Source of the DNA: Monoplex corrugatus
Lineage: Eukaryota > Mollusca > Gastropoda > Littorinimorpha > Ranellidae
Reading direction: 5' to 3'
Length of the DNA stretch: 64,000 bases
NCBI GenBank assembly: GCA_030674185.1
Contig: JAPXFY010000022.1
Span: 38,860,130 to 38,924,129, forward strand
Numbering within the stretch: position 1 is the first letter of the stretch; every line of letters begins with the position of its first letter. The notes below the pieces were generated by a model. The model saw only the letters and a program-made list of their open reading frames with translations, was not told the DNA's origin and ran no database searches. The translations under genes and the position numbers were made by a program. Shown here in pieces: positions 26,769-32,700 of this stretch.

Positions 26769-29700
26769 CTGTCGGTCACATTGATATTATTAATAATAAT
26801 GTTAATAACAACAACAATAATAACAGTAATAATAGTAAAAAGTTAAAGCTAATAATAACAACAATAATAGTAATAATAATAATATAAGATAATAATAATA
26901 GGCCTATTTATAATTCATCTACATGGCTGAATAATAATACTTATAAGTCATCTACATAGCCGAAACTGTCCATTTCAGAATACTCTTTCTTCCTTAACCC
27001 TTTGATTCCCGCACCCTGTCCACCAGCTTCCTACATTGTCAACTATGCTAGCAAAGCAAAAACTTAACCTTTTGACTCCTTCATCCTATCCTCCAGCTTC
27101 CTGTATTTAGCTGGTGGGCATAGGATGAGGGAGTCAAAGGGTTCGTTTTTGCAGTTGGTGGGCAGGGTGCAGGAGTCATGGTTATAAAAAAAAAGGGGGG
27201 GGGGGGGTGCGAAGTCAGTACATCAAAGCAGTACACACACAGCTGGATACAGACACTTACACATCAATGCAGCATAACAACAGTTATCAAAAATAACAAG
27301 AAATGTCAGAGAATCGGTCAACACTCACAGAATCAGTCAAAACACTCACAGAATCAGTCAACACACACACAGAATCGGAGTCAAAAACACTCGCAGAATC
27401 AGAGTCAGAAACACTCACAGAGTCAGAATCAAAACACCCACAGAATCGGTCAAAACACTCACAGAATCGAAGTCAAAACACTCGCAGAATCAAAGTCAAA
27501 AACACAGAATCAGAGCCAAAACACCCACAGAGTCAGAGTCAAAACACACACAGAGTCAAAACACTCGCAGAATCAGTCAAAACACTCACAGAATCAGTCA
27601 AAACACTCACAGAATCAGTCAAAACACTCACAGAATCAGAGTCAAAACACACAGAATCAGAGTCAAAACACTCACAGAATCAGAGTCAAAACACTCACAG
27701 AATCAGAGTCAAAACGCTCACAGAATCAGAGTCAAAACGCTCACAGAATCAGAGTCAAAACACTCACAGAATCAGAGTCAAAACACTCACAGAATCTGTC
27801 AACACACAGAATCAGAGTCAAAACGCTCACAGAATCAGAGTCAAAACGCTCACAGAATCAGAGTCAAAACACTCACAGAATCAGAGTCAAAACGCTCACA
27901 GAATCAGAGTCAAAACGCTCACAGAATCAGAGTCAAAACGCTCACAGAATCAGAGTCAAAACACTCACAGAATCAGAGTCAAAACGCTCACAGAATCAGT
28001 CAAAACACTCACAGAATCAGTCAAAACACTCACAGAATCAGAGTCAAAACACTCACAGAATCAGAGTCAAAACAACAGAGTCAAAACACTCACAGAATCA
28101 GAGTCAAAACACTCACAGAATCAGTCAAAACACTCACAGAATCAGTCAAAACACACACAGAGTCAAAACACTCACAGAATCAGAGTCAAAACACACACAG
28201 AGTCAAAACACTCACAGAATCAGAGTCAAAACACTCACAGAATCAGTCAAAACACTCACAGAATCAGTCAAACACACACAGAGTCAAAAACACTCACAGA
28301 ATCAGTCAAAACACACACAGAGTCAAAACACTCACAGAATCAGAGTCAAAACACTCACAGAATCAGAGTCAAAACACAGTCAAAACACTCACAGAATCAG
28401 AGTCAAAACACTCACAGAATCAGTCAAAACACTCACAGAATCAGTCAAAACACTCACAGAATCAGTCAAAACGCTCACAGAATCAGAGTCAAAACACTCA
28501 CAGAATCGGTCAACACACAGAATCAAAGTCAAAACACTCACAGAATCAGTCAACACACAGAATCAGAGTCAAAACACTCACAGAATCAGTCAAAACACTC
28601 ACAGAATCAGTCAAAACACTCACAGAATCAGAGTCAAAACACTCACAGAATCGGTCAACACACAGAATCAAAGTCAAAACACACAGAATCAGAGTCAAAA
28701 CACTCACAGAATCAGAGTCAAAACGCTCACAGAATCAGAGTCAAAACGCTCACAGAATCAGAGTCAAAACCTCACAGAATCAGAGTCAAAACACTCACAG
28801 AATCAGAGTCAAAACACTCACAGAATCAGAGTCAAAACAGCTCACAGAATCAAAGTCAAAACGCTCACAGAATCAGAGTCAAAACACTCACAGAATCAGA
28901 GTCAAAACGCTCACAGAATCAGTCAAAACACTCACAGAATCAGTCAAAACACTCACAGAATCAGAGTCAAAACATCTACAGAATCAGAGTCAAACACAAA
29001 TCAGAGTCAAAACACTCACAGAATCAAGTCAAAACACTCACAGTAATCACAGTCAAAACACTCACAGAATCAGTCAAAACACACACAGAGTCAAAACACT
29101 CACAGAATCAGAGTCAAAACACTCACGATCAGAGTCAAAACACTCACAGAATCAAAGTCAAAAAACACTCACTAGAATCAGTCAAAACACTCACAGAATC
29201 AGTCAAAACACTCACAGAGTCAAAAACAACTCACAGAATCAGTCAAAACAGAATCAGTCAAAACACTCACAGAATCAAGTCAAAACACTCACAGAATCGA
29301 GTCAAAACACAGTCACAGAATCAGTCAACCACAGAATCAGAGTCAAAAACAACTCACAGAATCAGTCAAAACACTCACAGAATCAGTCAAAACACTCACA
29401 GAATCAAGTCAAAACACTCCACAGAATCAGTCAAAACACTCACAGAATCAGAGTCAAAACACTCACAGAATCGGTCAACACCACAGAATCAAAGTCAAAA
29501 ACACTCACAGAATCAGTCAACACCACAGAATCAGAGTCAAAACATCACAGAATCAGTCAAAACCTCACAGAATCAGTCAAAACACTCACAGAATCAGAGT
29601 CAAAACACTCACAGAATCGTCAAACACCACAGAATCAAGTCAAAACACTCACAGAATCAGTCAAAACACTCACAGAATCAGAGGTCAAAACACTCACAGA

Positions 29701-32700
29701 ATCAGTCAACACACAGAATCAAGTCAAAACACTCACAGAATCAGTCAACACACACGAATCAGTCAAAACACTCACAGAATCAGAGTCAAAACGCTCACAG
29801 AATCAGTCAAAACACTCACAGAATCAGTCAACACAAAATCAGAGTCAAAACACTCACAGAATCAGTCAAACACAGAATCAAGTCAAAACACTCACAGAAT
29901 CAGTCAAACACACACAGAATCAGTCAAAACACACACAGAATCAGAGTCAAAACACTCACAGAATCAGTCAAAACACTCACAGAATCAGAGTCAAAACACT
30001 CACAGAATCGAGTCAAAACACTCACAGAATCACAAAGTCAAAACACTCACAGAATCAGTCAAACACACAGAATCAGTCAAAACACTCACAGAATCAGTCA
30101 AAACGCTCACAGAATCAGTCAAACACTCACAGAATCAGTCAAAACACTCAGCAGAATCAGTCAAAACCACAGAATCAGTCAAAACACTCGCAGAATCAGT
30201 CAACAACAAATCAGTCAAAACACTCACGAATCATCAACACCCAGAATCAGTCAAAAAACATCACAGAATCAGAGTCAAAACACTCACAGAATCAGTCAAA
30301 ACACTCACAGAATCAGTCAAAACATTCTAATCAAAACACAGAATAAGTCAAAACTCTCACAGAATCAGTCAAAACACCCACAGAATCAAAACACAGAATA
30401 AGTCAAAACACTCGCAGAATAAGTCAAAACACTCGCAGAATCAGTCAAAACTCTCACAGAATCAGAGTCAAAACACTCACAGAATCAGTCAAAACGCTCA
30501 CAGAATCGGTTAAAACGTTCACAGAATCTGAGGCAAAACACAAAGTCAAAGTCAAAACAAACACAGAATTGGAGGCAAAACAAACACAGAATTGGAGGCA
30601 AAACAAACAGAATTGGTGTCAAAACACTCCCAGAATCGGAGTCAAAACACAGAATCAGAGTCGAAAACACTCACAGAATCGGAGTCAAAACACAGAATGA
30701 GTCAAAACACTCACAGAATCGGAGTCCGACAGCGCCGCACTGCGAACAAAGGAGATGAAGATGACGGACTTGTCGCGACCCTGGTACTGATCCACCGTGT
30801 TTACCTCCACATCTTTCAAGGGGAAGCACTCTGACAGTCGCTGCTGGAGTGCTCTGACCTGAGCCCTGTAAGGGGCAATCACCCCAATGTCGTCTGCCGG
30901 GATACCAGCCTGGGGGAGGAGGGCGATTTCAATGGTAAATTATGTGCATATCTAAACTGGATGAGAACGGATTGGAATTTTTTTTTTCTTTTTTGTTGTT
31001 GTTGTTGATCATAATGGAATTTTTCTGCATGCGGGTGGCTCTTTTCGAGAAAAAACACGTTGCCACTGACATGCACAGTAGCCATGTGGCTAAATGTTGT
31101 AACTCGAACTGAAAGGCCCTGAGTTCGATTCACCTAGACATCTCCACCTGGTGAGTGATTTTTTTTTCCGAACTCCTGAGTCAAATGTGGTGACTGCCAG
31201 TGCCTACACCTCCTTCATATGCATGTTAAAGATCCTATAAGTCATGACGGTGGCTGGCTTATGGAAACATGGAAACACCCAGCTTGCGTGCTCACCAAAG
31301 ATGTAGACTGTACAACAATATCAGAGACCATGGTCAGCTCATCTACAAGCTTAGCTCTTCCTTCACTACAAAATCTGAACATATATGATGAGTAGTGAGT
31401 CCACATGTGTTTGAAGAATACTGATATGCAAAAATGACTTTTCATAAAAACAATATAAGGGAATGCAGCCCCCCCCCCCTTGGGGACACCGGGGATTCTT
31501 TCAGTACAAATAGTATCCCCACCTTCTGGAAATTCTGTGCCAGAATTTTCCTCTTTTCTGTCATTCTCTTTGTTTCTATCTTCCTCCTTTCCTTTCTGTC
31601 ATTTCTTCCTATCATTTTCTGCCTTGCTGATCCATTCACCTGTATGTGTTCGAAAAGGTCTTGCGTCATTTTCTCCTAGGGTTGATAATTGGACACATAC
31701 ATGTATTGGGTGTGTTTTTGGCTCTTTGAGGCAAGATATGCGGAAGCAATATTAGGTAGGCCTAATTTGAGCCTGTTTTTATATATGTTTTAGTGTCCTT
31801 GGTTATGTTTAAGTTTGTATTCAGGTATGTTTTTTAGGTCCCCTGTGCGATGGATTGGATGGAGTGGTCAAAGCCAGGAGCGTCTCCTTGGATTATGTGC
31901 ACAAATGCATTGATATTCGTCATGTTGAAGTTTTGTTCATATTCTGAAACGGTTATAGCCCTGATATGGCTCTACACAGTCGGCTGGGCTTTATTAAACA
32001 AAAATAACAGTAACAAGGAACGTGGTCAGCTTGTCTTAGAGCTTGTGTTCTCCGTGCTCCACAAACAAGTCTGAGACAACATTGCTCAAACACAGAAGAA
32101 AGAAAGCGCACAGTCCGGCTAGCACTGCTACTGTTATTTTTGTTCAAAGCCCAGCCGACTGTGTAGAACCATATCAAGGCTATAATCATTTCAACACACA
32201 CACAATACTTCAACAGGAAAAAAAGGAAAAGGAAATTAAGTACATACATCAATGCATTCGCACACAAAATCCAAGGAACGCCCTTATCGTTGACCACTCC
32301 ATCTGATTTATCAGACAAGGGATTTAAAAAAACATACTTGAATACAAATTTAAACATAACAACAATCTTGAATACAAATTTAAACATAACTAAGGAATAC
32401 CTGAATACAAATCTAAACATAACTAAGGACACTACAGCACATATAAAACAGGCCTAAATTACCTAAAATTGCTTCCGTATATCTTATTTTCCTAGACCCA
32501 AAAATGCACTTAATACATGTACCTAATCATCAATCCTAAGAGAAAAACACATATAGGTGAATGGACCAACAAGGCAGAAAATGATAGGAAGAAATGACAG
32601 AAATAAGGCAGAAACAAAGAGAGTGACAGAAAAGAGAAAATTTCTAGCACAGAATTTCCAGAAGCTGGAGATACTACTTATACTGAAAGAGCTCCCGGCA

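Follow-up and report, generated by a model that had tools for sequence, protein, structure and literature searches.

Known boundary minisatellites

The first report of a 'mirage' minisatellite in amphioxus is said to have concerned Adh, and a human minisatellite in 6-16 (IFI6, G1P3), made of 26 copies of 12-bp units, was reportedly described by Turri et al. in 1995. Mirages are tandem repeats across exon-intron boundaries (PMC3087553) that have been found in Adh3 (units of 10-72 bp), in the globins BflGb6 and BflGb9 and in TnC, to which repeats of PGBD5 have been likened, and they are said not to disturb regular splicing (PMC3087553, PMC3902484). In the human gene, two downstream repeat units serve as donors (PMC4526556). 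Tandem duplication of sequence containing a splice site is also described as altering gene structure and producing novel introns (PMC2812944, PMC4974935, PMC2891723).

The array described here lies in a gastropod DNA2 gene, within a 64-kb stretch of DNA that was analysed as a whole (hereafter the window), and is a new, unusually large case of this known kind of boundary minisatellite, smaller ones being found in amphioxus and human. As in the amphioxus mirages, its unit spans the boundary, with 12 exon and 11 intron bases, from the donor of exon e17 on, and its units carry splice signals (83 copies of GTGAGT and 79 9-mers identical to the e17 donor). The host differs, mirages being known from a cephalochordate whereas the present array sits on the donor side of a gastropod exon, and so does the scale: mirages vary in length between alleles, with 3 and 6 units in the two BflGb6 haplotypes, compared with about 150 in the single snail sequence. 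With the human 6-16 minisatellite it shares the position at an exon end and units that are donor sites. Unlike the duplications credited with novel introns, it lengthens an existing intron, and no new one is seen. In the open library that was searched, we found neither an array of this kind in a mollusc nor one of comparable size. We assign a probability of about 0.7 to the reading that this is a mirage minisatellite which grew from the e17 boundary, that the first donor is mostly used and that the array has no selected function.

The DNA2 gene and the e17-e18 intron

The gene is on the minus strand, and the protein joined from its exons in the window is partial. Eighteen exons were placed by mapping the Nucella, Babylonia and Batillaria proteins onto the window and setting the edges manually. 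The top protein-search matches were the DNA2 proteins of Nucella lapillus, Babylonia areolata and Batillaria attramentaria (73, 72 and 71% identity to the query, respectively, over 89-90% of its length), a search of the PDB set matched the partial protein to mouse DNA2 with an E value of 3e-95, and in a 12-row tree the window protein grouped with Nucella and Babylonia with a support of 97/95. By sequence similarity, the gene is a gastropod DNA2.

The join of e17 and e18 falls between whole codons. The acceptor at 26769 was preferred to an alternative six bases further on because it gives a gapless junction loop with Nucella and Babylonia. An earlier note on this DNA had placed the end of e17 at 30,715, and this was borne out, with the first donor base at 30714. 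The features of the locus are collected in Table 1, where a slash marks the splice site.

Table 1. Coordinates in the window of the e17-e18 intron, its array and related features of DNA2
Feature	Position	Strand	Remarks
DNA2 exon e17	30715..30909	-	195 nt, whole-codon end
DNA2 exon e18	26616..26768	-	acceptor CGACAG/AGC
Intron e17-e18	26769..30714	-	3946 bp, of which the array takes 3409 bp (27306-30714)
Boundary minisatellite	27306..30726	-	~150-160 units, the commonest being GTGAGTGTTTTGACTCTGATTCT (23 bp) and a 21-bp form lacking one CT
e17 donor TCT/GTGAGT	30709..30717	-	78 identical sites elsewhere in array
In-frame TGA	30685..30687	-	in the path of any transcript whose donor lies further downstream; reads VSVLTHSVF, then stop
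Degenerate proximal edge	30505..30710	-	GTGAG in 1/8 units: decoy at 30674, 40 nt downstream
Array core	27560..30505	-	GTGAG in 95/134 units
Degenerate distal edge	27306..27560	-	GTGAG in 4/13 pieces, two of them fragments
Second boundary duplication, one copy	34987..35057	-	end of exon 36590-36507 and donor; 91.5% identity over 71 nt; in GT tract
Third such duplication, in three copies	57938-57877, 57713-57650, 56488-56420	-	end of exon 58172-57987 and donor region

Structure of the array

Tandem Repeats Finder delimited the array at 27306-30720, with a period of 23 (also 44), 161.5 copies, 81% matches and 14% indels, in agreement with the earlier description of about 150 copies over 3.4 kb; depending on how the array is cut, the number of units is 152, 156 (a few being fragments) or 161. 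The same description gave a repeat of 21 or 23 bp, which holds for 85 of the 143 anchored intervals (23 bp in 43 and 21 bp in 42), the remainder having other lengths. The unit is composed of 12 nt of exon end and 11 nt of intron start, and the array begins exactly at the e17 donor: the exon half of the first unit is the last 12 bases of the exon (30715-30726), and the array is otherwise intronic. In transcript sense, the 3' end of e17 reads GGACTCCGATTCT, followed by GTGAGTGTTTTGAC. The 20-mer GATTCTGTGAGTGTTTTGAC is present in 70 copies inside 27300-30730 and in none in the rest of the window on either strand, while GACTCYGATTCT, searched with at most one mismatch, had no match in the window outside 27290-30740. 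A dispersed satellite or transposon-borne repeat would have its unit at other loci, of which these 64 kb contain none.

The antisense of the array (27124-30401, plus strand) is poor in stop codons and contains open frames of 384, 640, 1022 and 1034 aa, which are mechanical and run the risk of being taken for genes.

Origin of the array

The proposal that the array grew from the boundary itself is supported by the fact that its unit contains 12 coding bases together with the donor, abuts the exon and is absent from the rest of the window, and that the exon tail, SDS/S, is shared with Nucella and Babylonia. Judging from these features, the array most likely derived from the boundary, and growth would have proceeded in that direction. 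A 23-bp piece across the boundary would have been tandemly duplicated first and would then have expanded through replication slippage, gene conversion or unequal exchange; the core has presumably gone on turning over, and both edges have decayed.

The junction loop reads FVRSASCVQSDSSARGGLL in Nucella and FVRSNLQGLSDSSGRGGLL in Babylonia, both of equal length to the window protein and without gaps, and in this gapless alignment the tail SDS/S.RGG is common to all three; the loop differs in the other nine molluscs aligned (Batillaria, Pomacea and seven more). Because it is shared with Nucella and Babylonia, the exon tail looks older than the array, a comparison made at the protein level over a few residues. 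Growth could also have run the other way, a pre-existing intronic array having reached the exon so that a unit became its tail (DSDS) and its donor. The junction loop is indeed longer than that of mouse, and the poor exon half of the e17 donor (TCT) looks as if it had not been shaped as an exon end. We consider such a capture unlikely: SDS/S is also found in the loops of Nucella and Babylonia, aligned without gaps, which puts the tail before their split, barring an array of the same age; an older array may be present in Nucella and Babylonia as well, in which case the exon tail would have been captured from it.

Turnover and copy number

The units of the core are recurring copies of a few variants, with exact repeats of up to 121 bp that are several units long, whereas the edges consist mostly of unique, decayed units. 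In a cut of the array other than that behind the GTGAG counts of Table 1, singletons make up 13 of the 65 units at 27560-29000 and 30 of the 58 at 29000-30340. The corresponding counts are 11 of 17 next to the exon (30340-30714) and 11 of 12 at the distal end. The homogenised core, edges excluded, that is expected of a mirage was thus found at 27560-29000 and is less clear at 29000-30340, where the units are more varied than one would expect had the core turned over throughout; in this respect the stretch counts against growth as a mirage.

The odd units of 29000-30340 could reflect either age or uncorrected read errors. In a rival reading the array is real while its copy number and many of its indels are artefacts of assembling a long repeat or of consensus calling, as might be suspected from the rise in unique units between the two parts of the core (p 0.0003), from the T-runs of a length other than 4 (17 of 63 at 29000-30340 vs 7 of 67, p 0.02) and from the four minisatellite-like arrays of more than 1 kb in the window, which have 9-14% indels where shorter arrays have 0-9%. 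However, the recurrent unit variants and long exact repeats resemble real turnover, and both e17 and e18, on either side, have open reading frames, so that errors on this scale seem quite improbable to us. In view of the odd units and T-runs at 29000-30340, the copy number is to be taken as approximate.

Selective purging of decoy donors near the exon was considered and rejected: the proximal edge differs from the core in its share of units with GTGAG (p 0.0016), yet it does not differ from the distal edge (Fisher p 0.61, the 13 distal pieces including two fragments). Since the far edge has decayed too, an edge effect suffices to account for the loss of decoys next to the exon, the samples being small (1 of 8 vs 4 of 13).

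Donor sites and reading frame

The donor 9-mer TCTGTGAGT occurs at all of the 79 sites mentioned above, the real e17 donor included, and TCT/GTGAG at 100, which agrees with the earlier view of many near-identical competing donors. The accompanying statement that most units carry a consensus 5' splice site stood in so far as the 83 GTGAGT sites amount to slightly over half of the units; it failed for the exon half, TCT, which is non-consensus. Donors were scored with a position matrix and by duplex energy with the 5' end of U1. By this matrix the e17 donor is middling, combining a good intron half with a poor exon half, and its score of 5.1 ranks seventh among the ten scored donors of this gene. 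There are 82 sites at least as strong, counting e17 itself, where 200 dinucleotide shuffles yielded 18.7 +- 3.9 and never more than 31, and the density of such sites is 24 per kb in the array vs 4.8 per kb elsewhere on the same strand. As the donors are identical, there is no intrinsic reason for preferring the first one.

The choice matters for the reading frame. Only one of the 100 TCT/GTGAG sites, that of e17, gives an open protein, and the 99 downstream ones all lead to one shared early stop; the sole other open TCT/GT site is a weak GTGTTT 21 nt downstream, which is in frame and adds 7 residues. The early stop removes e18 together with its conserved RRLNVAVTR stretch, which we take to be helicase motif VI, and the use of a decoy should therefore be a loss of function. 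The suggestion in the earlier note that retention of several units might be tolerated is not supported by these frames.

The spliceosome would mostly take the first donor, aided by exon definition of the 195-nt exon, and now and then a decoy 40, 213 or 234 nt further downstream would be used, yielding transcripts with the early stop that are probably degraded. Classical work, in which the intron-proximal donor is expected when all sites are occupied, counts against such use of the first donor. So does the human 6-16 gene, in which downstream units are used as donors, whereas any TCT/GTGAG decoy in the snail gene is predicted to lead to the early stop. With 78 further copies of one 9-base donor downstream of a single exon, the locus offers a natural test of donor choice, and since only the first among the strong donors yields the full protein, it bears on distance to the exon as a deciding factor.

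Possible roles of the array

Loading of U1 on the nascent transcript is possible in view of the sequence, and the array could then act as a regulatory platform, binding many U1 particles or supplying poison donors, with its length tuning the amount of productive DNA2 mRNA. The number of 9-mers identical to the real donor and the stop codon reached from 99 of 99 downstream sites would fit such a role. The donor hexamer, however, is no better conserved than other parts of the unit. The substitution rate peaks at donor +6 (11.8%), deletions affect donor G3 in 18.6% and donor A4 in 19.9% of the units, and exact counts are 83 for GTGAGT compared with 143 for TTGACT and 141 for ATTCTG, the only rarer six-mers (54-68) being those across the CT missing from the 21-bp units. 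This argues against a selected U1-binding role, and decoys have decayed at the far edge much as they have beside the exon, within the small samples given above. We regard a regulatory platform as distinctly unlikely, and the array is most likely without function, as far as can be judged from the pattern of change in its units.

A very slight chance might be given to a more specific role, in which the array would brake DNA2 to a degree that varies with its length, each added unit being an extra decoy donor that shunts transcripts to decay. DNA2 processes replication flaps. If the brake were real, a lower dose of DNA2 would destabilise minisatellites, its own array included, resulting in a feedback between a repeat and a repair gene.

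Other duplications in the window

Duplications spanning the boundary are found at several boundaries of this one mollusc gene, which bears on how introns lengthen. Besides e17 there is a second one and a third one (Table 1), the latter with copies of 71-84% identity separated by other sequence within 56420..57938; e17 is set apart from them by its copy number. A local copy score of at least 16 was obtained at 4 of 36 boundaries (counting e17 and an acceptor case at exon 60531). Among 1000 random positions drawn from 26000-63700 and lying clear of the listed arrays, 108 reached it, as did 268 of 300 positions inside arrays. Boundaries flush with arrays were kept, so that the comparison, if anything, favours the boundaries. 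Several of the 36 edges were set between one and about six bases from where splicing probably occurs, and no donor was assigned to the exon at 39652. A special enrichment of duplication at splice boundaries is unsupported by these counts (4/36 vs 108/1000), and duplication at about the background rate points to a general habit of local duplication in the region.

At the acceptor case, a 68-bp repeat of about 2.6 copies (60541-60719) lies upstream of the acceptor of exon 60531 and includes a second, in-register CAG as well as a third that has become CCG; for its homology to this exon, 272 of 5000 shuffles score as well. A second array bearing GTGAGT in the gene sense occupies 60738-61615 and 63893-64000, with about 2.3 kb of other sequence between its two parts, and contains 16 GTGAGT in about 27 copies of the 33-bp unit GCATGGTGAGTCCAAAGTCTGATTATGTGTATT. 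No upstream exon for this array was located in the window, and its status as a boundary array is doubtful because the ...EHKGQ that precedes the next exon in relatives does not fit the unit.

Rfam gave no match in the window at gathering scores. An open frame of 1091 residues at 19365-22640 on the minus strand resembles, by eye, the endonuclease and reverse transcriptase of a non-LTR retrotransposon. Finally, six fish DNA2 models (P0021, P0031, P0042, P0087, P0093 and P0101) are without five residues at the same loop as the e17-e18 junction, reading STLGELLKDW where others read STAEEGNLGELLKDW, a difference that might point to an intron at the same position with more than one donor in fish as well.
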